This document shows positions 6,713-27,579 of a DNA stretch of 29,790 nucleotides, piece by piece. The stretch lies in IMG/VR virus record IMGVR_UViG_3300038441_000199, positions 1 to 29,790 of that record. One strand, written 5' to 3'. Both the position numbers and the translations under genes were made by a program. The notes under the pieces were generated by a model, which was given only the letters and a program-made list of their open reading frames with translations, ran no database searches and had not been told where the DNA came from. This DNA is from a virus. Position 1 is the first letter of the stretch. Each line of letters starts with the position of its first letter.

Positions 6713-9700
6713 ATCGTCACCTCAGTGACATAGCCCCGCCCGACAGAGGCAGAGATTTGGTAGATTTCAATTTCCGCATCGGTGGTTTGCAGATTTATTC
6801 CTGCGCTCGCCTGCATCTGAGCCGTGAGCGAGAAGGCCGGAGTCGTGACATAGGACGATTCTTCGCCGTACACAACCTCATACTTCTCGGTTTCCTCGTT
6901 CAACGGCACATCAGTCCCAGAAGGAAGCTCTTGGTTGTAGCGGGAGCGCCGTTGCCACGTCAAGCCGACGCTGCCGTCGCCATCACTGTCGATATAGGCA
7001 GCAACGCCACTAGCAGAATCTTCCCGCCATTGTGAGCCACTTTCCAATACAGCCATCGCACCGTTTGAATAGGTCGATGTAGAGGTTCCAAGGTATTCCC
7101 AGGTCACCCCCGAATCCGTAGAAATATGCGACTCGTTAACCGTGTTCAATTTGAACGACGTGTATATGGTGGTCCCCGCGCAGGCTACAGAACAAGTATC
7201 AAGCGCTGCCTCTGTTGCCGGCCCCGAATCAACTAGGCTAAACGTGCTGCCGTCCGTGCTGCGGCAGGTAAAGAAGATGACGTTGTTGCACCCATTGATA
7301 AAAAGGGCCTCTGAGGAAGCATCGAAGCCGTAGAGTTTCAAGGTTCCGCCGACAGGCAGCGTCACATCGGACCACGTAGCGAGGTCTGTTGACCTGACCA
7401 GTTTGTTTGTGCCGGTAGCCTCGCCATCGCCTGCGCGCTGCACGCCTACCATCATGTAGTAGTAGGCGCCGAACTTCTTGATGTGAACGCGAGACTGAGC
7501 ATCAATGACATAGCCTCGGGAACTCATCCCCGTCAGACCTGAGACGTACGGAATCTGCGTCCATGAAGTCCCGTCCGTGGTGGTATAAAAATTCCCCTCG
7601 GCATCCAAAAGATGGATCGTATCGTCCAGCGTGAAAACGCCTACTGGCCGCGCCGTAATGCCGGTCTCATAAATGAAGGTTGACGCAAATCCCTCGGTCC
7701 AGAAATCCACGTCCCATGGGGCCGTTTCGTCATCCTCGGTCGTGCTGGTACTTTTGCCGATGAAAACATGAAAGCCATTGGCATAGGTCCACTTCTCATA
7801 GGTGGTGTCTGGCGGGTATCCAGAGGTTTTCCGGTTGCGAAGGTTCCAGTCCTTGCCGTCCTCGGAATCATAAAATTCATTGTATGGATTGCCTGATTCC
7901 GTGATGTAAGAAAACCACTTCTGACGGAACCCCTGCATGAACACCACTTGTGCTGTAAAGCCGGAGAAACTCAGGCCCGACCGGACATTACCGTTTGTGT
8001 TGTCAACAGAAACATTCACCACTGAATACGGTTTGAGCGCCACGCCCTCGGGGGTGAACTCTACCGCGCTGGTCGCTTGAACCTGCGTCCCCAAGGTCAC
8101 GGCCTTGACCAGTCGTTCCTGATTAACAGCCGACAGTTCCAGCGGCAGGCGAGCAAGGCCAGCGCCGATGAACACGAATCGGTCCCCGACTTCATGCAGG
8201 CCCGTAGCCCACTCGGTCCCACGCCGGCCACGCAGGAACCGTGACAGGGTATAGCGCCGCTTGCCGCTGAAAGTCCCGACGAAAGTAGCGTTGACATATT
8301 GCAGGACTTCCCAACGGTCCGCCGCTCCGACGAAGGCCGCGTTAGCGCCGCTCAATACGGCGTCGTCAGTGCGCGTTTCCAGCTCGCCGGTATCCATGTC
8401 CACGGTCAGGGTTGAAGCGTCGTCCCAGACCAGCGTAGGGCCATCCGCGAGGGCATCCGTGGTCAGTCCCATGGTTGCCGCCGAGTTGATGACAAGCTCG
8501 CGCTCGTAATTGGCCCCGCCGTCCAAGGATCGGTAGAGCGCCGCGCCTCTCCAGCCGGAGAAAACGCCACGGACCGCGACATAGATGCCAGCGTCATTGG
8601 CTGAAGAATCCAAGGCAGGGCCATCTATCAGGACCATTTCCGTAGGGCCTTCCAAAGCAACCGAATCAGTGGAAGGCAGAGACGCAGCTCCCACGACATG
8701 GCTGACATAGGAGCCGTCATCATCGCGGACCATCTCGACCGTTAGCGGGCCGGACGGCATCGGCATATCCACCGCCACGATGCGCGCTCGCTCGGTCTGG
8801 CCCTCTACCGGGATTTCGATGCAGTCCCCAGGCTCAAGAGCGAGCCAGCGGGGCGACATGGACCCCTTGTAGGACTCGCGCCCCCACCACCGATCCTGCA
8901 TCAGCACATCGGCAATGGTCGCGGCCTTGTCATCGGTCATGGCGATGGCAAGCTCTACGTCTTCCTTGTTCTCGGCATCCGTGGTCAGGCGCTCAACCTG
9001 CTGCATACCGGGTTCGTAGTTCTTGGCCTCTGCCTCGTAGTGGACCCGGAGAAGCCGGGGCATCTCTACGTCCTGCTGGCGCTCCATGGTGATAAGGACC
9101 GGCTTTTCATCGCCACCAGGGTTATAGGCCCCAAGGTCATCCTCGCCCAGAGAGGCCACGATAGCCCCGCCACGCGCCGGGAATCGGATCAGGCACTCGG
9201 ACTCCACCACGTCAAAGAACGTGTAAGCCTGCAACGGCTGGATGGCTTGCCGGGCAGTGGTGATGACGGCGATTCGAAAGCCGGGGACTTCCTCGGTCAG
9301 GTCCGAAACGTCGATCCGGTCAGCCGCAAGGCCGGTCCGCTCGCAGAGCGCCTGAACGATACTCCCGACAGTCGGCGGCACAGGATCAAACGCTTCCTTG
9401 TCGTAGGCGCGCGTATAGGTCGTCGTCGGCACGACAGGGTATCCAGCGCCGAAGGTCAGCCCGCCAGGGATGACTGCGCCGTCACTGACTGCGGCCGCAT
9501 AGGCCGCGTCCCAGAAGGCTTGGGTATCGTCTGCGCTACCGCTGACGATGACCGGACCTAGGGGATAGGAGTTGACGTTAACCCCAGATGTTCCGTAATT
9601 GGCGAGCGCCTTGTAACTGCCCACGGCGACGGAATAGCCCAAGTCCCTTTCCAAGGTTGAGCCAATGACGCAATAGTCCGGGTTGTCCGGGAGGGCCGGG

Positions 9701-14834: not shown

Positions 14835-15518
14835 TCATTTCACCCAAGAATACCCATGACCATCAACAACGGTATTTACCCATGATGGCTTTACAGCGAG
14901 TGCTTTGGCTATCTCAGACTTCCTTAGGCCATCATTCCATAGTCTGCGAATTTCTAACACTTGTTCCACAGACAAAAGGCCCCTCCCGGTGCTTCGCCCG
15001 GATAACGTTTCTGAAATTTTAGCCTTCTGTTCTGCTGACTTGGGTCTTCCCTTATGGGCCGCGCCTATTTTTGCAAGGCGTTCAGGAGACCGTGGCCCCC
15101 CGCCTTTGCCCTTTCGGCTCGCGCTAATTAGCGCTTTAGATTCTTCGCTATGCCGATGCCCAGTGAAATTCCTAGTCCTTTTTGCAGCCTCAGAAAGCTT
15201 CGCCTTTGACTCATCCGACATGCGGAATCCCAACTGGGAGCCAGCAATAGGCGCGGAGTTGAACTCAGGCTTGATAACATCAATAGCCCTCTGCTCATAC
15301 ATCAACAAATTGTCCCGGGAACAGAACAGCAGCACCTTGAACTCTAGTGAATCAATCCCGTATTTAGCCGCTGTGCGCATCATGAACTTACTATGATGCT
15401 TACCAGTCTCCAGCGTGCGCCTATGTTCCTTCCACCGTTTCTTAATGTTCACGGCAGAGCCGACATAGCTCCGGCCGGTAGCAGGATGGCTGATTTCATA
15501 GATGCCGCAATTCATCAT
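14835..15518 (-). CDS. GIY-YIG homing endonuclease with NUMOD3 repeats and C-terminal HTH (227 aa)
   Basis: This is a free-standing homing endonuclease. The catalytic domain has GIY at residues 5-7, YVG at 18-20 (variant of YIG), arginine R28 in KKRWKEH, and the metal-binding glutamate E75 in YEQRAID. Three or four NUMOD3 DNA-binding units follow (MSDESKAKLSEA, HSEESKALISAS, RSPERLAKIG, KSAEQKAKIS). A C-terminal helix-turn-helix LSVEQVLEIRRLW...KSEIAKAL is also present. The gene is inserted between the G/GT chaperone and tape measure genes, with stop/start overlap (ATGA at 15518-15515). Part of it has visibly lower GC than its neighbours (about 47 % in a 60-base hand count). It probably drives its own spread rather than virion function. 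Confidence 0.9.
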   Translation of the reverse strand: MMNCGIYEISHPATGRSYVGSAVNIKKRWKEHRRTLETGKHHSKFMMRTAAKYGIDSLEFKVLLFCSRDNLLMYEQRAIDVIKPEFNSAPIAGSQLGFRMSDESKAKLSEAAKRTRNFTGHRHSEESKALISASRKGKGGGPRSPERLAKIGAAHKGRPKSAEQKAKISETLSGRSTGRGLLSVEQVLEIRRLWNDGLRKSEIAKALAVKPSWVNTVVDGHGYSWVK

Positions 15519-16613: not shown

Positions 16614-16979
16614 TCAACGTGACGTGTGGAAGTCCACGTCCAGACTGTAACGGAAATTCTTGGTTATTGGGTCGCGGGGGCCTTCCCTGAGTGAGGTGAC
16701 ATAGGCGTCCCCCTCCAAGGCTACGCGAATCGCTGAAGCTGCATTCCTGACGCTGCTGAGGGTGTCGCCGTATACGTCGATCTGGGCCGTGTAGGCGTCC
16801 ATGTCTGACCGGCTGCCGAGGTAATTCTCAGGGATGCCGATAGGCGTCTGGAACACCGCATACGGCTTGGCAACCGTATCTGGGGCCTCCCCATGGGGAT
16901 AGACCCGCAGCGGGGTAGCGCCTAGCAAGGCTTTGACCGGGGCGGATGCGAACAGCAGGGAGAAGACCGGAGGAAACAT
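16614..16979 (-). CDS. DUF3168-type tail completion protein (121 aa)
   Basis: The protein begins with FSLLFASAPVKALLGATPLRVYPHGEAPD. It continues with PYAVFQTPIGIPENYLGSRSDMD and YTAQIDVYGDTLSSVRNAASAIRVAL, all typical of DUF3168 proteins. These form the ring that ends the tail at the head-proximal side, equivalent to lambda gpU or SPP1 gp17. ATG 16979 overlaps the previous TAA (TAATG). Location between gp10-like and major tail genes agrees. Confidence 0.85.
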   Translation of the reverse strand: MFPPVFSLLFASAPVKALLGATPLRVYPHGEAPDTVAKPYAVFQTPIGIPENYLGSRSDMDAYTAQIDVYGDTLSSVRNAASAIRVALEGDAYVTSLREGPRDPITKNFRYSLDVDFHTSR

Positions 16980-17473
16980 TAGATCACCTGCCCTTTCTTG
17001 GATGCCCGCTTGATGGCTCGATCAATGGCCTTTTCGTATTCTTTAACGAACACGTCCGTAGCGGCTTGGACGTTCTCCGAAAGGGCGCGGCGGAAAAAGG
17101 GCTGCGCCGGGGTTTTCTCGGTGCCAAATTCCAGGTGGCGAAAATGCCGGGTGTCGCCGCCCGGCAGCCCGCTTAACTGCTCGCTGGTCTTGTTACCGCC
17201 CGCCCCGCCCATCACGCCGACCCGGAACCCCAAGTCCCCGGTCCGCTTGTTCAGTTTGGAGTTCCAGCGTTCCACGATGTTAGCCGCAATGTCCGCCCGG
17301 GTTTGGGGGTCGTCAATCTGCTGGGCATTGGCCTTGGCCGCGTCCCGAACCAGTTGGGCCGCCTTGCGGAGCGCAGACCGCCCGCCCTTCTTCTTGGTTT
17401 CGTATTTCAGGTTCTCCAACTTCCCCAGAAGGGAGTCCAGCCCCTGAATCTGGAATGTGACTTTATCTACCAT
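16979..17473 (-). CDS. HK97 gp10-like head-tail joining protein (164 aa)
   Basis: I chose ATG 17473 because GGAGG lies four bases upstream; longer in-frame starts (17491, 17503) would sit within the preceding gene. It reads VTFQIQGLDSLLGKLENL at the N-terminus, RKAAQLVRDAAKANAQ, then HFRHLEFGTEKTPAQPFFRRAL. The last is the hallmark HxxFxE-G-T-x-x-x-P-A-Q-P-F-x-R-P-like motif of the HK97 gp10 family. These proteins complete the head-tail junction or tail terminator. The start overlaps the end of the GT8-like gene, so the glycan cassette is translationally linked to morphogenesis genes. Confidence 0.87.
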   Translation of the reverse strand: MVDKVTFQIQGLDSLLGKLENLKYETKKKGGRSALRKAAQLVRDAAKANAQQIDDPQTRADIAANIVERWNSKLNKRTGDLGFRVGVMGGAGGNKTSEQLSGLPGGDTRHFRHLEFGTEKTPAQPFFRRALSENVQAATDVFVKEYEKAIDRAIKRASKKGQVI

Positions 17474-18143
17474 ATAGCCTCCATTCCTCATCGAATGACC
17501 CACCTTGCCAGCCGTCTAGCCACGGACCGCCTAGGGTCATGTGGGCAATGGCTACATTATCCGGCCTCGGAGCCACATCTACCAGCCAGTTGAACCTGGG
17601 CGGCAGTTCGCCAATCTCCGAATCGGCCAGCCAATAGAAGGCATGAAGGTCGCGGCCCGGCCTTTGGTTCACATCCTGAAGGCTAAGGCGCCGGTTAGCG
17701 GGATGGTCGCAGTTCCACAGGACCACACTGGACCAGTTCTTACGGGGGTAACTGGTCTGCGGCTGCCCGTCCATCTTGACCCCGCCGCCCTTCTGGTCAT
17801 GCTTGACCACCATCACGGCGAACTTGGGATCAGCAAGGGCGAACAGTTCTTCGACGGGCCGCATGAAGATCACGTCACAGTCGGTGAACAAAGCCCATCC
17901 GGCCTGTGCCAGATGCGGGACTAGGAACCGGCTGGCGTGGAAGTCGGTTGAGGCAGGGGCATTGCTGGCAAGGTCATATACCCCACCTCGCCTATCCTCA
18001 ATTCGCCGCAGGAGGCCGCAGGAGGCCAGCCGCTCCGCATCCAGTGGGGTAACTAGGGCCGTCGGCGAAACTCTGGCCAGAGACGCCGCAGCGGCCCTGT
18101 ACGCGGCATCCTCGCGGGCGTCATAGCCAAGGTAGACCCTCAT
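17463..18143 (-). CDS. GT8-like (GT-A fold) glycosyltransferase with DxD motif (226 aa)
   Basis: This probably transfers a sugar from a nucleotide-sugar donor. The N-terminus MRVYLGYDAREDAAYRAAAAS is a beta strand then helix. The key motif is FTDCDVIFMRPVEELF with D88-C89-D90, the metal-binding DxD of GT-A enzymes. It is preceded by FHASRFLVPHLAQAG, and followed by KNWSSVVLWNC (the usual acceptor-side NSS/NSG-like segment), DLHAFYWLADSEIGELP and a C-terminal IAHMTLGGPWL resembling the H-x-x-G-x-K/P-W motif. ATG 18143 overlaps the methyltransferase stop as ATGA. It is the last gene of the six-gene cassette; donor and acceptor are unknown. Confidence 0.78.
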   Translation of the reverse strand: MRVYLGYDAREDAAYRAAAASLARVSPTALVTPLDAERLASCGLLRRIEDRRGGVYDLASNAPASTDFHASRFLVPHLAQAGWALFTDCDVIFMRPVEELFALADPKFAVMVVKHDQKGGGVKMDGQPQTSYPRKNWSSVVLWNCDHPANRRLSLQDVNQRPGRDLHAFYWLADSEIGELPPRFNWLVDVAPRPDNVAIAHMTLGGPWLDGWQGGSFDEEWRLYGR

Positions 18144-18658
18144 GGCAAGCATACCCCGAATAGCGTTGTCTCGGTCTGCTGGCGCAACTGGACAGAGGCG
18201 AAGTATTGGCCCAGCTTGCCCTGCCACTTCTCGGCTGGCCACTGGATCAGGTGGGCATTCCGGCCATCAGGAAGGCTCTTCCCAGCCGGGCCGGTATGGA
18301 TCGTGACGGCCAGCAGTAGGCGGGTCTTGGCTAGCAGGCTTTTCAAAACATCATCCAGGCACTTCGGCTCGATATGCTCCAGCACATCGATACAGCAAAC
18401 CATGTCGAATGTGCCATGCGGCAGGACCGAATAGCGCCAGACCGCTGGGTCATATTGGGCAAACTTGCGCGCCTTAACCAATGGGCCTAGGGCTTGCTTC
18501 AAAGCCCCTTTGCCAGCCCCATAATCCAAGATGCTGCGCGGGTCATGCTCGATGATTAGCTCGGCCACCAGCGGCGCGAACTTCTTGGACGCCGCGCCGT
18601 AGCGGGCATTCCGGTGAAGTTCCTTCTGCTGGCGCAGGTAGCGGGGCGTAATCAGCAT
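18140..18658 (-). CDS. Class I SAM-dependent methyltransferase (172 aa)
   Basis: The SAM-binding motif I is ILDYGAGKGALKQAL (residues 43-57), with the acidic end of strand 2 at YD (69-70) and a strand 4 motif DMVCCIDVLEHIEP (85-98), a pattern shared with small O- or N-methyltransferases of the UbiE/Methyltransf_11 type. The sequence is short and has no target-recognition domain of DNA methyltransferases, no DPPY and no PC motif. DNA methylation is therefore unlikely. Between glycosyltransferase-like genes it most plausibly methylates a sugar hydroxyl. ATG 18658 overlaps the preceding stop by 7 bases. Confidence 0.8.
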   Translation of the reverse strand: MLITPRYLRQQKELHRNARYGAASKKFAPLVAELIIEHDPRSILDYGAGKGALKQALGPLVKARKFAQYDPAVWRYSVLPHGTFDMVCCIDVLEHIEPKCLDDVLKSLLAKTRLLLAVTIHTGPAGKSLPDGRNAHLIQWPAEKWQGKLGQYFASVQLRQQTETTLFGVCLP

Positions 18659-19329
18659 CCCAGTAGCCTCGCGTATTCGGCCATCTGAGCCTTGCGGGCG
18701 CCCTTGAAGTCCCAGATAGGTGCGCGCATGCGGATCGATTGGCGGCCTAGTTTGGCGCTCTCGAACCGGCCGGCAAGCGGCAGCATGCGGACGTTCACGC
18801 CATGGACAATGCGGGTGGAATCCTCGTTAGGCACTACCCCCATGACTTGGACCAAGGCGTCTATGTCGGCTCCCCAAGCCAGCGAATCCTGCGATAGCCC
18901 TTGCGCCGTCTCTACAAACCGGGACCATAGGGCATTGAGGTGGGCGGATGGGGTAAAGCCGATCACGCTGTTCACAATGGGCTTCGGCTTCAGCCGGGTC
19001 AGAATTGTCAGGTCCGGGCCGTTCATGAAATCAATTCGGTCGGCAATCAAGGTATCGGGGCTGACCATGATGGCAGGCTTTTCGGAAGCGGCAACGGCGG
19101 CGGCCTGCGCCTTGAGTAGCCACATCATCAGGCCCTCTTTGGCATCGCCTACCCTCAGCCATGGGGATTCCATGATGGTGGACTCGTCGGTGACGACTTG
19201 CACCGTATACCCATGCTTCGCAGCACTGCGCCTCAGCAACTCAATGGCATTACGCCAGTCGAACCCGCGCTGGTTCTGCTTCGGCTTATCCGGCAGGTTG
19301 CAATCCGCATAAAAGGTGATGAGGTTCAA
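18652..19329 (-). CDS. GT-A-like protein with SPD in place of DxD (225 aa)
   Basis: The start is inferred as TTG 19329, overlapping the preceding TGA as TTGA with AGGAAGG six bases upstream. An ATG at 19404 would run through the previous gene. The N-terminal LNLITFYADCNLPDKP is followed by VQVVTDES, GDAKEGLMMWLLKAQAAAV and PAIMVSPDTLIADRIDF. SPD at residues 90-92 sits where GT-A enzymes carry DxD. Later VNSVIGFTPSAHLNALW and LAWGADIDALVQVM mirror the NsGv and wgaDQ segments of GT8-like enzymes, and the end has APIWDFKGARKAQM. A divergent or metal-independent glycosyltransferase, or a non-catalytic partner, is possible. Confidence 0.6.
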   Translation of the reverse strand: MNLITFYADCNLPDKPKQNQRGFDWRNAIELLRRSAAKHGYTVQVVTDESTIMESPWLRVGDAKEGLMMWLLKAQAAAVAASEKPAIMVSPDTLIADRIDFMNGPDLTILTRLKPKPIVNSVIGFTPSAHLNALWSRFVETAQGLSQDSLAWGADIDALVQVMGVVPNEDSTRIVHGVNVRMLPLAGRFESAKLGRQSIRMRAPIWDFKGARKAQMAEYARLLGC

Positions 19330-20138
19330 ACTAGCCCTTCCTCTTTCAAATGCGCCATGAAGTCCCCTGATGCCATCTCGGATAGCGTCCATTGCCAGTG
19401 GCAAATGTCAGCGAGCGCGGAAATTCTGGCCTCGGGACTGAGCGGAGCCACAGTTTCAAGATCCGTTAGGTCATGGGGATAATACACCCTACCGGGGCCG
19501 GCTTCCGCAAAGACAGGGATGCCTTCCACAATGCAGTCGGCCCCGATATTCCCGGTCAGGCAGACCACGGCCCAGGCGTCCCGTATAGCCCCCCACGTTG
19601 AGCCATGCCCAGACCTAGGCAGCCCATGGATAGGTTCGTTCTTGGGCTTCTCGCGGACAAGAATAGGGCGCTCCGTCAGGGCGCGGATGCGCTCGAAGGT
19701 TTCCCGTTCCCACTGACCATAGGCGAGCCCCTGCCGCGTCGCCTGCTTTGGCCCCATGCCGCAGAGTAGGACGTAATCACCTCGATTGATGACCGGCGCC
19801 TGATCGATGCCAAGCCGATGCCATCGCTTGGGGCTGTGCGGTCGCAGGGTCAGATGCTTGTCGGGCTGCTGTGCGTCCACCGATACCCGGATATAGCCCT
19901 TCACGTATTCCGAGAAGTATCCTTTATCCCCGACCAGCCTACGGGCATTCGGATACAGGTCGAAAACCGGCTTTGCCGGTCCTAGGCCATAGAGCCAAAC
20001 GATGTCCGCCATCTCCTGCCGTGCGCCCTCAACGGTCCTGAGTTCGCAGGGGATCGCATGGCGCTTGCAGCCCTCTAGGAAGGCTTCCGCCATCCTGCGA
20101 ATCCGCATCGGGCCGTGGTAGTAGGCTAAAGCACGCAC
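19326..20138 (-). CDS. GT-B-like glycosyltransferase, paralogue 2 (270 aa)
   Basis: GTG 20138 is preceded by GGGGAGG at a 7-base distance and overlaps the previous gene by 13 bases. The N-terminal half is an alpha/beta domain (MADIVWLYGLGPAKPVFD). The C-terminal half has ILVREKPKN and VVCLTGNIGADCIVEGIPVF (residues 191-210). The latter resembles the sugar-nucleotide-binding segment in capsule and lipopolysaccharide GT-B enzymes, with the form vvTxxSgxxxdAixxGIPV. The C-terminus WQWTLSEMASGDF is shared with the upstream neighbour. I infer a glycosyltransferase or related sugar-binding protein; the donor is unknown. Confidence 0.6.
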   Translation of the reverse strand: MRALAYYHGPMRIRRMAEAFLEGCKRHAIPCELRTVEGARQEMADIVWLYGLGPAKPVFDLYPNARRLVGDKGYFSEYVKGYIRVSVDAQQPDKHLTLRPHSPKRWHRLGIDQAPVINRGDYVLLCGMGPKQATRQGLAYGQWERETFERIRALTERPILVREKPKNEPIHGLPRSGHGSTWGAIRDAWAVVCLTGNIGADCIVEGIPVFAEAGPGRVYYPHDLTDLETVAPLSPEARISALADICHWQWTLSEMASGDFMAHLKEEGLV

Positions 20139-20812
20139 CGGAATGCCTCCCCGCTGGCTATTTCGGCATGGGTGAACTGAGCCCAGGCCAGCCGCTGGAA
20201 CATAGCCAGCCGGCCGGAATCAGTGTTGTCTTGCTCCGCGCACCAGTCTGGCATATGGGAATCGACAGGGATGCCCCAAGCCAGCGCCTTGACAGCCGCC
20301 CCGCTGCCCCAGGTCACAACCCTACCTGCCTGAGCCAAGTCTTCCTCTAGCGGCTTGCAGGGGCCTTTGCCGGGATGCTTTCGGATACGGGTGCAGCCCG
20401 GGGGCGTCCAGCCGCTAGGCATGGCGATGGCTCTAGGGCCAATGCCACGCTGCGGCAGGCCGATGACTTCAGGGCCATTGCGCCATGGCTCTAAAGTCAC
20501 ACCGAGAGAATCCCACCGATCTGGGCCACCGGGGCGGATGGATGAGGCGCGGTTGTGGAGCGTTGGCCAGAGTGAATACCACCGCTTACCGGCGAACTCA
20601 TTACCCCAAGTCGCATTTTCCGCAATCAGGACCTTTGCCCCTCGGGCTTCAGCCTCTTGAGCGTGGTAAACGTCCCCGCCATATCGGTTCCAGATGACCA
20701 GCACGTCGGCGTTTCGGGGCTCGCTGGCTTTATATCCCAAAGCCTCCAGGCCATCCTTGAACAGCCGGGCCTTGGGCGAATGGAAGTGCCTCAGGATTAT
20801 GCTATACCTCAT
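20126..20812 (-). CDS. GT-B-like glycosyltransferase, paralogue 1 (228 aa)
   Basis: ATG 20812 overlaps the upstream stop by 11 bases. The N-terminal alpha/beta half contains NADVLVIWNRYGGDVYHAQEAEARGAKVLIAENATWGN in parts. The C-terminal half has RVVTWGSGAAVKALAWGIPVD (residues 164-184 region), a classic GT-B loop, helix and strand for phosphate and sugar recognition. It shares with the next gene the order RWxxLG, a GLPQRGIGPR or LLCGMGPK strand-loop, the xGIPV motif and the terminal AEIASGEAF/SEMASGDF. The two are therefore divergent tandem copies. It is shorter than ordinary GT-B enzymes, which are 350 aa or more, so it may be only partly catalytic. Confidence 0.6.
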   Translation of the reverse strand: MRYSIILRHFHSPKARLFKDGLEALGYKASEPRNADVLVIWNRYGGDVYHAQEAEARGAKVLIAENATWGNEFAGKRWYSLWPTLHNRASSIRPGGPDRWDSLGVTLEPWRNGPEVIGLPQRGIGPRAIAMPSGWTPPGCTRIRKHPGKGPCKPLEEDLAQAGRVVTWGSGAAVKALAWGIPVDSHMPDWCAEQDNTDSGRLAMFQRLAWAQFTHAEIASGEAFRCVL

Positions 20813-21293
20813 CGCGGAGGTTCCCCTTCCTGAAACATTCGAGCGTCGAAACCGGGGAGCAATTGATAATAGGCAACTTGGCCATCTTGGCGAACTGCTT
20901 TTTCATCGTTTCGAATTGGACGCGGCTGGTGTTCCGTAGCGTGCCCTTCGTGTGCTTTCCGAAGAAATGGGTTCCATGCAAATCGGCGCCTAGCAGGATG
21001 ATCTTGTCAGGCTTGATCTTCGCCGCAACAGCTAGCCCAAGGCATCCACTGTTCCCGGGTCTGGGCTCCACAATCTCCGCGCCTTCGATCTTCTCGTAGT
21101 GGCAATGGAACTTCGGGCCTGCGTAATCCGGGTTGTGTGCCCTCCACCAGCCCTTGTCATACGACACTAGGGCATCAGCCCATGGGGCCATGTAGATGGC
21201 ATCCGAGACTGCGACGACGTACCCCTTACCTCGGCAGTAGTCCACATCTGCCTGAGTCAGTGACGGGCCGGTGCAGAGCACGAAGGCAATCAT
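20802..21293 (-). CDS. GPSL-motif protein, GT42 sialyltransferase / MptE-like fold (163 aa)
   Basis: The protein opens FVLCTGPSLT (C7-T8-G9-P10-S11-L12), matching the GNGPSL nucleotide-binding loop at the N-terminus of GT42 CMP-sialic-acid transferases and of MptE/DUF115-type proteins. Residues 81-93 NSGCLGLAVAAKI and 99-107 ILLGADLHG mirror the SGxxxxxxAixLGyxxIyLxGiDf block, and INCSPVSTLECF follows near the end, as in this superfold. Length is short for GT42. It is the first cassette gene, linked to the head-tail adaptor stop by ATGA. The family also includes non-sialyl enzymes, so a glycosyltransferase or pyrophosphokinase role is likely but unproven. Confidence 0.62.
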   Translation of the reverse strand: MIAFVLCTGPSLTQADVDYCRGKGYVVAVSDAIYMAPWADALVSYDKGWWRAHNPDYAGPKFHCHYEKIEGAEIVEPRPGNSGCLGLAVAAKIKPDKIILLGADLHGTHFFGKHTKGTLRNTSRVQFETMKKQFAKMAKLPIINCSPVSTLECFRKGNLRDEV

Positions 21294-21631
21294 TCGCCGG
21301 AATCGTTAGGCCCGCTTGCGCAAGCGAAGGTCAGATATTCAAGGTTGCTATCCTTGTCCGCCAGGATGCCCAGGATTTGATAGACCTTGCTGGCATGGAG
21401 CGCCCGCCACGTAGGCAACACATCGGAGCGGTAACGGATCGTCAGCCGAGTATCGACTTGGGACTGAACCGCCTGCGCCGCGATAAACTCGCGCGCAGAT
21501 AGCGGGGCTACCTCAGCCCATACAGTCCCCTGTCCCGTCCACGTAAGCGCTTGCTCACCTGTGGTGGTGTTCTGGACGTAGCTCGGGGATTGCAGCGTCA
21601 CCCGATGGCGAAGAAGTCCGGCGCGGATCAT
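21290..21631 (-). CDS. Head-tail adaptor / stopper (phage H-T join type, 113 aa)
   Basis: I chose ATG 21631 because it overlaps the upstream TGA as ATGA; a longer in-frame start at 21652 lies within that gene. The sequence MIRAGLLRHRVTLQSPS, GEQALTWTGQGTVWAEVAPLSAREFIAAQ, TRLTIRYRSDVLPTWRAL and YQILGILADKDSNLEYLTFAC is textbook for SPP1 gp16 / HK97-type head-tail joining proteins. These close the portal channel after packaging. Confidence 0.9.
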   Translation of the reverse strand: MIRAGLLRHRVTLQSPSYVQNTTTGEQALTWTGQGTVWAEVAPLSAREFIAAQAVQSQVDTRLTIRYRSDVLPTWRALHASKVYQILGILADKDSNLEYLTFACASGPNDSGE

Positions 21632-21972
21632 CTTAGGGTTGGATCGCGCCAAAAAGTGAGCAAAGATATAACTCCCATTGGCAGGTAGTTGTGGGTGAAA
21701 GCCTTGTCAGGGTCGCCGTCTCGATCCTTGAAGAGATACCCGAGTAGCAGCAGTGTCGCAGCCTGAATCTCAAACGGAATGCCGACCGGCACGCCATTGG
21801 AATCAAGAATCGGCTCACCTGACGAATCGGTGAACTCGTCCGCGCCGTTGCGAATGTAGTTGAGGACCGCCCCCGAGGCGGCATGAATCTTGAGCGTCAG
21901 GTCGTTGTCATCGTCCGAATTGTCGATTCGGAGGTGGTCTTTAGCAGCCGCCAATGTCACTAACATGACCAT
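21628..21972 (-). CDS. gp6-like head-tail connector (114 aa)
   Basis: ATG 21972 has GAGG 8 bases upstream; ATG 21966 is also possible. The protein starts MVMLVTLAAAKDHLRIDNSDDDNDLTLKIHAASGAVLNYI in parts. That is the highly conserved N-terminus of gp6/gp15-type DNA-packaging connector proteins, and QAATLLLLGYLFKDRDGD follows. This helical ring binds below the portal. It overlaps the adaptor gene as ATGA and follows the PKDG-motif gene with a 2-base gap. Confidence 0.9.
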   Translation of the reverse strand: MVMLVTLAAAKDHLRIDNSDDDNDLTLKIHAASGAVLNYIRNGADEFTDSSGEPILDSNGVPVGIPFEIQAATLLLLGYLFKDRDGDPDKAFTHNYLPMGVISLLTFWRDPTLR

Positions 21973-21974
21973 GG

Positions 21975-22778
21975 TTAGAGCCTCGCGCTCGACTTGGCAT
22001 CGCGGCCACGGCGAACCGCGAGCCTCCAATCGGGGTTGCCGATCTCTGGCTTTGTCGTGGTGTCCTTCTGGGCGATCCAGTAGGAGCCGCCATGGGTAAC
22101 GCCGTCGCCCTGCTCGACTGCCATGCCTTCCTTGTAGAAGCCAGCATCAATCACACAGGGGATAACGATTTGAGCCTCGTGCGAGGCTTCGCCCTTGACG
22201 AACTTAAGCGTAACGGTGCGCTTGCCGTCATGCTCTACAGTCATGTCGTCCCAGCCCACGCCGTTGATACCGTCCTTGCCATCCTTAGGGATGGGGATGG
22301 CATCGACTGCCTTCTGGAAGAGGGCTTGAGCGCGGCGCTCAAAGTCCAGCGCCCAATCGGAACTCTTGGCCTCGAAGCGGTCCGCAAGGCGCGCGATTAG
22401 TAGATCAGCCACGGCCTCAGCAGTTGGAGAGATGCCATCCTTAGGAGTAGGAATCTTGGCGAGGGCTTCCGCCAGCATCTTGGATACAGCCTCTTCGGTT
22501 GGACCGTCCTTGCCGTTCTGGGGCTTGGGCCACTCATCCAATATGGCTTTCACAGCGTCAAGGATGAGCGGGCGAACTTCGTCAATCGACACGCTCTTGC
22601 CGTCCTGCGGCTTCGGGAATCTCTGGATTCGCTCATCAAGGGCGCGCTCAATCGCAGCGCCGTCCCAGATAACGGGATCAGGCTTGGCCTCAAGCGCTTT
22701 GATTCGATCAACAATCGGGGCCAAAGCCTTCCCGATGTAGTCCTGAACACCGGCCATCAGTTTCTGTAGATCAGCCAT
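21975..22778 (-). CDS. Phage structural protein with PKDG repeats and C-terminal carbohydrate-binding-like module (267 aa)
   Basis: ATG 22778 (MADLQKLMAGVQDYIGKAL) overlaps the portal stop by 8 bases. The N-terminal half is a helical coiled-coil region punctuated by four short PKPQDGKS, PKPQNGKDG, PTPKDGI and PIPKDGKDG collagen-like motifs spaced about 35-50 residues apart. The C-terminus reads GFYKEGMAVEQGDGVTHGGSYWIAQKDTTTKP and DWRLAVRRGRD, a compact module like the chitin/carbohydrate-binding type found at the ends of phage structural proteins. A role as a head or neck fibre is inferred from fold style and placement next to portal and connector. Confidence 0.65.
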   Translation of the reverse strand: MADLQKLMAGVQDYIGKALAPIVDRIKALEAKPDPVIWDGAAIERALDERIQRFPKPQDGKSVSIDEVRPLILDAVKAILDEWPKPQNGKDGPTEEAVSKMLAEALAKIPTPKDGISPTAEAVADLLIARLADRFEAKSSDWALDFERRAQALFQKAVDAIPIPKDGKDGINGVGWDDMTVEHDGKRTVTLKFVKGEASHEAQIVIPCVIDAGFYKEGMAVEQGDGVTHGGSYWIAQKDTTTKPEIGNPDWRLAVRRGRDAKSSARL

Positions 22779-24141
22779 GCGCGTAGGACTCCGGGGCCTT
22801 GGTGAACAGGAAGGCAAGCGCCTTCTCTTCGTCTATCTCTTCCTCTTCCGGCTCTTCCTCTTCCGGCTCTTCCTCTATCGGCTCTTCAGCCACAGGAGCG
22901 GGCGCGAAGGTCAGGCCATTGCGGTCACGCTCGGCGAGTGCGGCAAGCGAGGTATCCTGCTGTTGCATCCAGATGGAATCGCCACCATCCACTTGGCCAA
23001 GGTTGATCTTCTTGCGGGCTTCGTTGATGGTCCGAAGCGAGCCAGAAATGGAAGCATTCAGAACGTCGATCTGAGTCTTGCTGTCCATTCGCAGGAGTCC
23101 GTCTAGGTCAAGCTCAACCCCAAGAGATTCCCCGAGGTTCAAGCCCTCATCCATGCAAACCTCGTATTCCTCGATCAGCGATTGCAGGCACGTATTGTAG
23201 TAATCCTGCTGCAAGGCTTCGATGTTGTTGAAGCTCGGCATGGTGCCTACGCCGATCTTGTAGGGCGGGATATGGAAGGTCGAACAGATAACCTCTGCCG
23301 TCCACTTCAATTGCTCGATAAGCTGCGAGTCAGTGGCATTGATCCGCATCGGTGAATACTTGAGGTCGTCTCCGACCACGGCGACCTTACCGGCATTCGA
23401 GCCAGTGAAGTTGGTTTCCCAATACGCCTTGAGGCGCGCTGCAGTTTCTTCGGAAATCGCACCGGGCGCGGTAAGGATGCCTCCGGGCTGCGAGCTGTTG
23501 GAGAAAAACTCCGATGAGTTCTGCTCAATGGTCAGGCCGAGATTCGCCACGCATCCGGCCGCGAATAGGGGCGACACGCCTACCAGCGGGTGGAAAAGGC
23601 AGTTCATCCGGTCATGGATGATTTCCGAGGCCGGTACAGTAAGGCCCTGATTGTCTATGCCGCTCAGATTGTCGGACTGGAGTTGGTAATACACATCGCC
23701 AGATTCGGAAACCATGACCTGCACGCGGCAGGCGTCCAGCAGGTATAGGCCGATCACCACGCCACGGTTATCCCGAACCTTAAGCGCATAGGCGTTGCCC
23801 CGAGTCAGTTTCGAGGTCATCCACCACTGTTTGAACTGGATATGGTTTTGGTAGCGGTTAGGCTTGCGCAGGACTGGCGAATAGGCCGGGTTCGTCGTCT
23901 CCGACCAGATGCCGTCAGAGTCAACGGCAACTAGCTTGTTTCGAAGCTTGCCGAAGTCGTTGGCGATCAGGGTAATGCAGGCGTAGACGGCGTGATGCGC
24001 GAGGACGGTATCAACAGTCCATTCTTGGTTCTGCTGCCACGCACCGCTATACGGCTCTCGGATGATCGGATACCAGCCGCGATTCCCGACAGGCGAGAGC
24101 ATGGCCTTTCGAACATTGATCTCCCACCCAAAGAGTTTCAT
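22771..24141 (-). CDS. Portal protein, HK97 family (456 aa)
   Basis: This forms the dodecameric channel for DNA. Characteristic stretches are AVYACITLIANDFGKL, LLRKPNRYQNHIQFKQWWMTSKLTRGNAYALKVRDNRG in parts, and GVSPLFAAGCVANLGLTIEQNSSEFFSNSSQPGGILT. ICSTFHIPPYKIG is followed by FNNIEALQQDYYNTCLQSLIEEYE. Length is normal. The C-terminal 40 residues are an acidic tail of repeated PEEEE units (about residues 421-441), beyond the conserved domain. ATG 24141 directly follows the previous TAA-type stop region. Unusually for an HK97-type operon it lies after the capsid gene. Confidence 0.93.
   Translation of the reverse strand: MKLFGWEINVRKAMLSPVGNRGWYPIIREPYSGAWQQNQEWTVDTVLAHHAVYACITLIANDFGKLRNKLVAVDSDGIWSETTNPAYSPVLRKPNRYQNHIQFKQWWMTSKLTRGNAYALKVRDNRGVVIGLYLLDACRVQVMVSESGDVYYQLQSDNLSGIDNQGLTVPASEIIHDRMNCLFHPLVGVSPLFAAGCVANLGLTIEQNSSEFFSNSSQPGGILTAPGAISEETAARLKAYWETNFTGSNAGKVAVVGDDLKYSPMRINATDSQLIEQLKWTAEVICSTFHIPPYKIGVGTMPSFNNIEALQQDYYNTCLQSLIEEYEVCMDEGLNLGESLGVELDLDGLLRMDSKTQIDVLNASISGSLRTINEARKKINLGQVDGGDSIWMQQQDTSLAALAERDRNGLTFAPAPVAEEPIEEEPEEEEPEEEEIDEEKALAFLFTKAPESYAHG
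22837..22881 (-). repeat. 15-bp tandem repeat coding for PEEEE units
   Basis: Three 15-base units occur in tandem, at 22837-22851, 22852-22866 (identical) and 22867-22881 (two changes), with a partial fourth. On the coding strand the unit is CCGGAAGAGGAAGAG. The period is a multiple of three, so copy number could vary without breaking the portal reading frame. Confidence 0.85.
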
Positions 24142-24474
24142 TTAGGCGCTCGCTCGGCCCGGCTTCTTACGCCAAGTGCCGTCAGAGTTCTTCAGCTTCG
24201 TGCTGGTGTGCGTCTCCGCATCCCATGCGGTGCCAGCGGAGTCCAGTTCGGGGCCAGCGGCCTCCGTGGATTCTGCCGCTTCGGTGACTTCAGCGGTTTC
24301 CTCTGGCACATCCTGCTGCTTCGTCTGCAAGTCCTCCGCAACCAGCGCGCGGGTCTTGTAGACCTGCTGGAGCTTGTGCTTGCCGATATAGACCTTTGCC
24401 AGAACATCCTTGAGTTCAAACTCGTCGCCGGGCTTGTACTTGCCGAAGGGCTTGCCGATTGGGGTAACTTTCAT
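24142..24474 (-). CDS. Phage structural-region protein with WDxxxH...DGxWRKKxG motif (110 aa)
   Basis: ATG 24474 overlaps the small upstream gene as ATGA. The N-terminal 45 residues (KVTPIGKPFGKYKPGDEFELKD) look like a small beta domain. The middle is an Ala/Glu/Thr-rich linker. The end has TAWDAETHTSTKLKNSDGTWRKKPGRA, a C-terminal motif seen in many small phage proteins encoded near capsid and portal genes. Function is unknown; a head-associated role is suggested by location only. Confidence 0.6.
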   Translation of the reverse strand: MKVTPIGKPFGKYKPGDEFELKDVLAKVYIGKHKLQQVYKTRALVAEDLQTKQQDVPEETAEVTEAAESTEAAGPELDSAGTAWDAETHTSTKLKNSDGTWRKKPGRASA

Positions 24475-24593
24475 TTTGCGCCTTCCATCTTTTCGAGTCG
24501 GGCCTTGGCCCTCTGGCAAAGCTTGCTGTCAGGCTTCCTGCACAGCAGCTTAACCAATGCCCTTTGCCGACCGATACAGCCTTTACAAGCCAT
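24471..24593 (-). CDS. Very small phage protein (40 aa)
   Basis: ATG 24593 has GGGAGG upstream at 4 bases, and the 40-codon frame ends in ATGA overlap with the next gene. The peptide begins MACKGCIGRQRALVK and contains CRKPDSKLCQ: four cysteines in a CxxC...C...C pattern on a strongly basic background. A zinc-stabilised mini-domain is possible. It lies immediately after the capsid terminator, so it would be translated only from read-through or antiterminated RNA. Confidence 0.5.
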   Translation of the reverse strand: MACKGCIGRQRALVKLLCRKPDSKLCQRAKARLEKMEGAK

Positions 24594-26688: not shown

Positions 26689-27579
26689 CTAGCATGCGCT
26701 CTTCCGCAAAGAATTTGCCTTTCTAGTTTCCTGCCTTTTGCGGATACTTTCCTGAGACAATTTCTTTCCTTTGTTGCCATCGGAAATTTTCTTCCGAGTT
26801 TCTTCTGAAATAAAACGCCCCTTCATCCTCGCAGACATTTGAGCCTTCCATTCCTCAGAGTGCTTTCGCCCTCTTAACTTCTCTCTAAACTCTTCCGACC
26901 TTTTCTTGCCTTTATTCGCCGCTACCGACCTTTCGATAGCCAAGGCGGAAGGCTTCCGTCCCTTGTTTGCAACTGACAACTTAGCCCGTGTCTCTTCAGT
27001 TACAACATGGCCCATCATACTCCTGCGCCGATTCTCAATCTCTTCTGGAGATTGCTTTCTCCCCAGATGGTATATCCTTGCCGCTTCCGCCATCTTCGCC
27101 TTCATCTCGGGCGAGATTACTCTACTTTTTTGAGCCTGAGAAAACCTCAGCCTTTGTTCTGGGGTTCTCTTCTGACCAATACGCTTTGCTATCGTCTCTG
27201 GGGAGGCTTTCACGCCCTTCATTCGGGCAGAATGCTTGTCCTTGGTCGCCTGAGAATGCTTTACCCCTAAGCAATTTCCTGCCATTGGGGAAACGTTATA
27301 CTCGGGCTTCTTCTCGTCCATCCATCTCTGTTCGTTGGCTACAAGTTCAGCCGCCTCACAAACTTGGATTACCTCAAAAATAAACGCCTCCGCGCCATAC
27401 TTTATCCATGACCTCTGCAAGTATGCGCTATGGTGGACGCCTCTCCTAAGGTCGCCTAAATGCTTTGCCCATCTAACACGAAAGGACTTAGCACTTCCTA
27501 TATAAGTCTTGCCATTCAACAAGTTTCGGATTTGGTAAATGCCACTACCCGAAACCTCCGGTACAATTGCCTCAGCCAT
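26689..27579 (-). CDS. GIY-YIG homing endonuclease with many NUMOD3 repeats (296 aa)
   Basis: GIY is at residues 13-15, YIG at 26-28, R36 in VRWAKH and E83 in NEQRWMDE, a complete GIY-YIG catalytic set. Beyond residue 105 about seven NUMOD3-like DNA-binding units follow, with SPETIAK, SPEMKAKMAEA, TEETRAKLSVANKGRK, SEEFREKLRGRKHS, SEEWKAQMSARMKGR and SEETRKKISDGNKGKK. This is an unusually long array. An AAAGGAG site sits at 6 bases. Base composition is far more AT-rich than the flanks (about 43 % GC in a 60-base hand count), so it is likely a recent arrival. It lies between terL and the protease gene without disrupting either. Confidence 0.92.
   Translation of the reverse strand: MAEAIVPEVSGSGIYQIRNLLNGKTYIGSAKSFRVRWAKHLGDLRRGVHHSAYLQRSWIKYGAEAFIFEVIQVCEAAELVANEQRWMDEKKPEYNVSPMAGNCLGVKHSQATKDKHSARMKGVKASPETIAKRIGQKRTPEQRLRFSQAQKSRVISPEMKAKMAEAARIYHLGRKQSPEEIENRRRSMMGHVVTEETRAKLSVANKGRKPSALAIERSVAANKGKKRSEEFREKLRGRKHSEEWKAQMSARMKGRFISEETRKKISDGNKGKKLSQESIRKRQETRKANSLRKSAC

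Follow-up and report, generated by a model that had tools for sequence, protein, structure and literature searches.

Why would a phage insert a set of glycosyltransferase-like genes between the genes that connect its head to its tail, and what would their products decorate? The question is raised by the window analyzed here (the whole stretch of 29,790 nucleotides from IMG/VR virus record IMGVR_UViG_3300038441_000199), which carries a six-gene cassette at 17463-21293, all on the minus strand and flanked by genes encoding an Hc1 head closure protein and an HK97-gp10-like protein (Table 1). An earlier note, made from the sequence alone, had described such a cassette between head-tail adaptor and gp10-like genes with an overlap at every junction, and both points were confirmed. 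The flanking genes matched PF05521 and PF04883, and the overlaps from Hc1 through gp10 are 4, 11, 13, 4, 7, 4, and 11 bp, after the starts of g4, g6, and gp10 were moved downstream of the longest-ORF starts on the basis of conserved start points and purine-rich stretches upstream. The motifs named in that note are likewise present (GPSL in g1, SPD in g4, and DCD in g6). Five of the six proteins are glycosyltransferase-like and the sixth is a methyltransferase.

Table 1. Genes of the cassette and its two flanks, with positions in the window.
Feature	Position	Strand	Evidence
Hc1 head closure protein, upstream flank	21290..21652	-	PF05521 E 2.7e-26; coupled to g1 by ATGA
g1, putative CMP-ulosonate transferase, minimal Maf/GT42-like (GPSL), 163 aa	20802..21293	-	phrog_4603 E 1.9e-21; AlphaFold
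g2, predicted Kdo-transferase-fold GT-B enzyme, HP class (R144-X-H146-P147, E65), 228 aa	20126..20812	-	AlphaFold; motif conservation
g3, paralogue of g2, second class, 270 aa	19326..20138	-	hhalign vs g2; combined g2/g3 profile
g4, GT-A-like, SPD replacing DxD, 225 aa	18652..19329	-	hhalign; start corrected to TTG 19329
g5, class I SAM methyltransferase, 172 aa	18140..18658	-	PF13489; phrog_24759
g6, GT8-like GT-A enzyme, invariant DxD, 226 aa	17463..18143	-	phrog_28018; start corrected to ATG 18143
HK97-gp10-like tail completion protein, downstream flank	16979..17473	-	PF04883 E 5.5e-7; phrog_5 E 8.9e-24; start corrected to ATG 17473

The glycosyltransferase reading of the earlier note holds and can now be worded more sharply, with g1 as Maf/GT42-like, g2 as Kdo-transferase-fold, g4 as GT-A-like, and g6 as GT8-like. 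AlphaFold models, which that note had proposed as a check, cover g1 and g2, while g3, g4, and g6 were placed by sequence. The model of g1 (pLDDT 94.7) found its top realigned match in 5mu5, a structure of the flagellin nonulosonate transferase Maf (Z 13.6, 151/163 residues, 3.0 A), aligning to residues 273-510 of the 632-residue Maf chain, followed by the GT42 enzyme CstII (Z 10.4, 156 residues, 3.6 A). Residues G9, S11, D46, W50, G102, and H109 are near-invariant among 75 sequences. PF01973 scored 11.6 bits on g1, below its cut-off of 34.6, and the sequence profile of g1 reached CstII in the PDB at an E-value of about 0.1, a match that disappeared with fewer rows. Compared with the flagellin glycosyltransferases of the Maf family (PF01973), g1 is alike in predicted fold, while it consists of the core domain only (163 aa against about 630), lacks the full multi-domain architecture, and involves no flagellin. 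We regard g1 as a putative CMP-ulosonate transferase of minimal Maf/GT42-like type.

The fold of g1 is common to Maf, HPPK, and thiamin pyrophosphokinases (TPK), which raises the alternative that g1 is no glycosyltransferase but a pyrophosphokinase-like protein of MptE/HPPK/TPK type, encoded in a mixed metabolic cluster. Foldseek alone ranked pyrophosphokinases first, with the lowest E-values for thiamin pyrophosphokinase; in the realignment HPPK (Z 10.0) was about equal to CstII and TPK reached about 9.4, and PF01973 itself is named after MptE. However, the HPPK match extends over 127 residues, against 151 for the higher-scoring Maf, and g1 is tightly linked to four other glycosyltransferase-like proteins, one of which (g2) keeps a CMP-sugar motif. 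This alternative appears very improbable.

The model of g2 (pLDDT 93.1) is predicted to adopt the GT-B fold of Kdo transferases. The best 25 rows from Foldseek, and the best 15 realigned entries, were exclusively Kdo transferases, including KpsC of GT107 (Z 11.9, 203 residues, 3.5 A), WbbB of GT99 (Z 11.2), and KrkA of GT140 (Z 8.2), and the best match outside Kdo transferases had a Z of 7.2. The R144-X-H146-P147 stretch of g2 aligns with KVHP of KpsC; (K/R)XHP is the motif by which sialyl- and Kdo transferases alike bind CMP (PMC12887879). R144 is kept in all 76 relatives with H-P (the HP class), as are E65 and S170. E65 lies in an ExG stretch which aligns weakly, by HMMER, to EDG of KpsC; in KpsC-N the general base is Glu66. 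The protein g2 resembles the three enzymes in predicted fold, in the (K/R)XHP motif, and possibly in an acidic residue at the general-base stretch, but it is shorter and its equivalent of the QXXXD nucleophile reads QRGIG, with G125 in 76/76 sequences. Without this nucleophile, g2 falls outside the retaining Kdo transferase families and is not a member of GT99, GT107, or GT140.

The earlier note had also recognized two divergent GT-B-like paralogues, and hhalign agreed (g2/g3 probability 99.8, E 1.4e-27). The class of g3 has R/K-X-K in place of R-X-H-P, a further departure from KpsC, WbbB, and KrkA, and D at the acidic site. Against PDB sequences, the g2-only profile gave no Kdo-transferase match, and the combined g2/g3 profile reached KpsC at E 0.0025.

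The protein g4 was related to the GT-A family of the cassette by hhalign (probability 93.6, E 2e-7). The search of viral contigs and phages returned no relatives of g4; two turned up in later loci, SPD is kept in 3/3 sequences (the window and these only two relatives), and the three-sequence profile matched nothing meaningful in the PDB. The assignment of g5 as a SAM methyltransferase, already made in the earlier note, was borne out by PF13489 (36.8 bits, above the cut-off of 27) and phrog_24759 (E 7.6e-17). For g6, which matched phrog_28018 (E 1.8e-48), the DxD motif (D121, D123; DCD in the window) is invariant in 49/49 sequences, as are R105, H234, and G238; PF01501 (GT8) scored 12.2 bits, below its cut-off of 24.3, and the g6 profile gave weak matches to WbbM (E 0.016) and the GT8 enzyme GlyE (E 0.11). 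Glycosylation of DNA bases, considered less likely before, was rejected, as no supporting gene was seen.

A search for the block in other phages showed that it recurs. Relatives of g2 are encoded on 259 viral contigs (one scan), and dozens of contigs found by protein similarity carry the block; a narrow-pattern scan of genome contigs returned two MAG loci only. The block is under purifying selection (dN/dS 0.08-0.10), and this, together with the recurrence, indicates that the block is not a product of chance. Base composition shows no sign of a recent foreign acquisition (GC of 0.60 in the cassette versus 0.57-0.58 in the flanks). Among 88 distinct loci, nearly all of those with visible flanks have the cassette next to connector genes, and it occurs in several phage types. 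About 50 of 65 cassette loci contain a methyltransferase gene, and some cassettes include genes for a 2OG-Fe(II) oxygenase, a GT9 heptosyltransferase-like protein, or a KdoO-like (Kdo-hydroxylase-like) protein (PF11004, 28.2 bits, cut-off 25). The slot had been described as usually empty. This is so in the cassette-less relatives SOVA965, JLK-2012, and FSL SP-016, and nearly so in RHph_X2_26, but PAJU2 and D3 have a smaller insert there, with a methyltransferase.

The reading that we favor, and hold to be somewhat better than even, is a cytosolic system that draws on CMP-sugars of the host to furnish a virion protein with a short, methylated glycan containing an ulosonate, perhaps Kdo. The enzymes would be produced alongside the connector proteins and would act in the cytosol on a phage structural protein. 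First, g1 would move a CMP-activated ulosonic acid of the host onto Ser/Thr of the virion protein; CMP-Kdo would be the likeliest donor because nearly all Gram-negative hosts make it. The tandem g2 and g3 and the GT-A-type g6 and g4 would extend the chain, and the product would be methylated by g5. In E. coli, a Maf has been shown to attach Kdo to Ser/Thr of flagellin (PMC11339370), and the proposed analogy with Maf is that a structural protein which self-assembles is glycosylated in the cytosol. We infer the donor, the acceptor, the enzyme activities, their order of action, and the location of the product on the virion; the glycan would presumably be short and defined. Virion decoration is the best explanation of the position of the cassette, its late co-translation, its cytosolic enzymes, and the lack of envelope-conversion genes. 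Our reading also draws support from the models of g1 and g2, the CMP-binding motif of g2, the KdoO-like and GT9-like genes of some cassettes, the empty slot of cassette-less relatives, and the low dN/dS. Objections to it are the missing QXXXD of g2, the fold that g1 has in common with HPPK/TPK, the suitability of the same chemistry for LPS core modification, and the Caulobacter jumbo phages, whose cassettes follow the tail genes, away from the connector locus.

The third of these objections leads to the main rival, a modification of LPS core or capsule in the host envelope late in infection, which might, for example, stop released progeny from adhering to debris or shut out superinfecting phages. 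The Kdo-transferase fold belongs to the chemistry of LPS core and capsule enzymes, as do the GT8-like, GT9-like, and KdoO-like genes. However, the position of the cassette is locked next to connector genes in many phages and it is coupled here to Hc1 and gp10. Its six proteins contain no transmembrane-like stretch (maximum 19-residue hydropathy 1.42), and Pfam and PHROG profiles gave no match in the cassette to gtr-type serotype-conversion families, whose membrane flippase and membrane glycosyltransferases have no counterpart in it. We consider envelope modification a real but clearly less probable explanation.

Which protein would carry the glycan? The collagen-like "portal C" protein (21975-22817) was rejected as a cassette-specific acceptor, since it is also present in the cassette-less JLK-2012 and FSL SP-016. 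Comparison of cassette-bearing phages with the very few cassette-less sequences, for capsid or tail inserts that go with the cassette, revealed only short inserts, in MCP and Ad1, and yielded no acceptor, a point against virion decoration. This result suits another alternative, in which the glycan goes, late in infection, to a small molecule or to a host or non-structural protein, and host Maf-type enzymes do act on flagellin; the recurrence of the cassette inside virion gene operons of several phage types argues against it, and we judge it unlikely.

Virion decoration by phage enzymes has precedents. Virion glycosylation was reported in the cluster F1 mycobacteriophages Che8 and Rita (Freeman et al. 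2023, cited in PMC11256854). Phage-encoded glycosyltransferases are common to both cases, while the glycan on virion proteins was shown there and is inferred here; the mycobacteriophage glycosyltransferases are encoded close to the 3' genome end (PMC11256854, described for Maravista) instead of in the connector operon, and the set found here combines Maf-like and Kdo-transferase-fold proteins with a methyltransferase. Related cassettes occur in Caulobacter phages CcrSC and CcrColossus, which have homologues of g1, g2, g3, g6, and g5; their cassette differs in lying between tail and lysis genes, in an extra GT9-like gene, and in being mostly annotated as hypothetical. Pseudomonas phages PAJU2 (in the same slot) and D3 also have a g1 homologue. 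The words "glycosyl" and "sialyl" are both absent from the phiCbK genome paper (PMC3556154), and the open literature searched yielded no account of the cassette.

Virion glycosylation by phage enzymes has been documented in few phages. If our reading is true, a conserved multi-enzyme cassette at the connector locus of many phages would make it widespread in phages of Gram-negative bacteria and tie it to CMP-ulosonate chemistry, for which no phage report was found in the literature searched. A bolder form, which we put forward tentatively and think rather doubtful, is that hundreds of phages of Gram-negative bacteria attach to their virions, by O-linkage, a variably methylated oligosaccharide that is based on Kdo and resembles the LPS inner core. 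Host CMP-Kdo would be the source, a Maf-like enzyme of minimal size would act as primer, and the Kdo-transferase-fold enzymes, lacking the QXXXD nucleophile, would form a new family. Culturable relatives among Caulobacter and Pseudomonas phages offer directly testable cases. Several "hypothetical" phage gene families become candidate enzymes, and the compact, soluble enzymes of the cassette could serve protein glycosylation.

The window, a 29,790-base virus record, encodes siphovirus head and tail functions on its minus strand, in the order terminase, protease, capsid, portal, Ad1, Hc1, the six cassette genes g1-g6, HK97-gp10, tail terminator, major tail protein, tape measure, and tail tip. 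With the corrected starts (see table), each cassette junction overlaps by 4-13 bp, and the block from Hc1 to gp10 is thus coupled throughout. The GC content of the cassette is similar to that of its flanks. Two homing-endonuclease-like genes were also found, one between terminase and protease and the other directly upstream of the tape measure. Between capsid and portal there is also a small ORF; its product has a C-terminal WD...H.S.K...DGTWRKKPGR tail and matched only weakly to PHROG families of unknown function. Upstream of Ad1 lies a collagen-like protein, whose C-terminal stretch resembles a carbohydrate-binding module by eye, and whose relatives are also present in cassette-less phages.

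Coordinates of the cassette genes and other features
Feature	Record	Position	Remark
g1	window	20802-21293	minus strand
g2	window	20126-20812	minus strand
g3	window	19326-20138	minus strand
g4	window	18652-19329	minus strand; corrected start TTG 19329
g5	window	18140-18658	minus strand
g6	window	17463-18143	minus strand; corrected start ATG 18143
HK97-gp10	window		minus strand; corrected start ATG 17473
Homing-endonuclease-like	window	26689-27579	phrog_314, E 1.3e-44
Homing-endonuclease-like	window	14835-15518	phrog_314, E 1e-26
Small ORF	window	24142-24519
Collagen-like protein	window	21975-22817
g1 relative	AP009624.1 (PAJU2)	7819-8325
g1 relative	LR881104.1 (Klebsiella phage Eowyn)	2327-2845
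X1	L008	5411-6247	280 residues

Scanning with the g2 family led to 259 viral contigs with a g2 relative, the best 80 of which were retained; after duplicate removal, 88 loci with g2/g3 were obtained. Where both sides are visible, the cassette lies between Hc1 and gp10 (29 loci), Hc1 and tail terminator (six), protease and Ad1 (six), or portal and Ad1 (two); the remaining loci are cut by a contig end or, in two Caulobacter jumbo phages, the cassette follows the tail genes. No structural gene tested interrupts the stretch from g2 to g6. This position is informative, because the loci were gathered by protein similarity rather than by position. In cassette-less relatives, Ad1, Hc1, and gp10 are adjacent or nearly so. 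Podovirus-like contigs reached through g6 carry virion structural genes close behind it (in L024, phrog_2941, E 6.5e-37, and phrog_3287, E 9.4e-76). The main rival explanation is that the cassette modifies the host envelope, which its chemistry would also suit; its locked position, its coupling from Hc1 to gp10, and its lack of recognised membrane components make this less likely.

The g1 product matches phrog_4603, annotated as sialyltransferase. According to structural realignment, its AlphaFold model (pLDDT 94.7) is closest to the Maf flagellin glycosyltransferase core (Z 13.6, 151/163 residues), followed by CstII (Z 10.4) and HPPK (Z 10.0). Foldseek alone ranked thiamin pyrophosphokinases first, indicating that kinases share this fold; the predicted assignment of g1 rests on realignment, family match, and gene context. 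Two g1 relatives, in PAJU2 and Eowyn, are annotated in their records as 'structural protein'.

No match to g2 was found in Pfam or PHROG. For its model (pLDDT 93.1), Kdo transferases fill the first 25 Foldseek rows and all of the first 15 realigned entries, with KpsC at Z 11.9, WbbB at 11.2, and KrkA at 8.2, and the next unrelated entry at 7.2. In HMMER, the g2/g3 profile aligned with KpsC at three stretches: HP, Ser...ALxxGxPV downstream of it and, weakly, the acidic ExG/DxG. The g2 and g3 products are paralogous (hhalign probability 99.8, E 1.4e-27). The 143 g2/g3 sequences fall into two classes: in the HP class, chosen on the presence of H-P, E65, N66, H86, R99, R144, S170, G180, and E217 are found in 76/76; in the other class (n=67), nearly every sequence shows R or K-X-K, and 65/67 carry D at the acidic position. 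The Asp of QXXXD is the nucleophile of retaining Kdo transferases (PMC10148158, PMC12887879). Since QXXXD was not found in g2, where the corresponding stretch by sequence is QRGIG, g2 appears to be a CMP-sugar enzyme that shares the Kdo-transferase fold and probably uses another mechanism. In L088, L089, and L086, re-found g2 matches cross one in-frame TGA, which may lie inside the gene or in an extended match.

As for the other genes, g4 is related to the GT-A-like family of other cassettes (probability 93.6, E 2e-7), its SPD aligning near that family's DAD and its DFKG at HLKG. The g5 product is a class I methyltransferase (Methyltransf_23), and g6, in which the DxD and H..G positions are invariant, weakly resembles WbbM and GT8. 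Median dN/dS was 0.080 for g1, 0.096 for g2/g3, and 0.082 for g6, within the connector-gene range; together with the conserved residues, these values show that the enzymes are maintained by selection.

In the 65 loci that contain g2/g3 as well as g6, the most frequent order was g1, g2, X1, g3, methyltransferase, g6 (19/65). In most cassettes g2 and g3 are separated by X1, which has no Pfam or PHROG match and is absent from the window. A Pfam-supported methyltransferase occurs in about 50 of the 65, from varied families (Methyltransf_11, Methyltransf_24, FkbM, and Methyltransf_23), and a 2OG-Fe(II) oxygenase in five distinct loci. L019/L028 encode a KdoO-like gene (PF11004, 28.2 bits against a cut-off of 25), whose sole NCBIfam match is KdoO (E 1.2e-7, far under the equivalog cut-off, with a short best aligned stretch). 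GT9 heptosyltransferase-like genes exceed the Pfam cut-off in L019, L024, L026, CcrSC, and CcrColossus. These additions independently point to LPS-core-type ulosonate and heptose chemistry.

Virion glycosylation is already known in phages, such as mycobacteriophages Che8 and Rita (PMC11256854); a limited search of the open literature, covering few subscription papers, found no paper on Kdo-transferase-like or Maf-like phage enzymes. In E. coli, the Clostridium botulinum Maf transferred either Neu5Ac or Kdo onto Ser/Thr residues of flagellin (PMC11339370), which sets the precedent for protein O-linked Kdo. Comparison with cassette-less phages gave no clear acceptor candidate. The best explanation is that the cassette may be a cytosolic line that decorates a virion protein with a short, methylated glycan containing ulosonate; such a line would account for the position, timing, enzyme types, and reliance on host donors.
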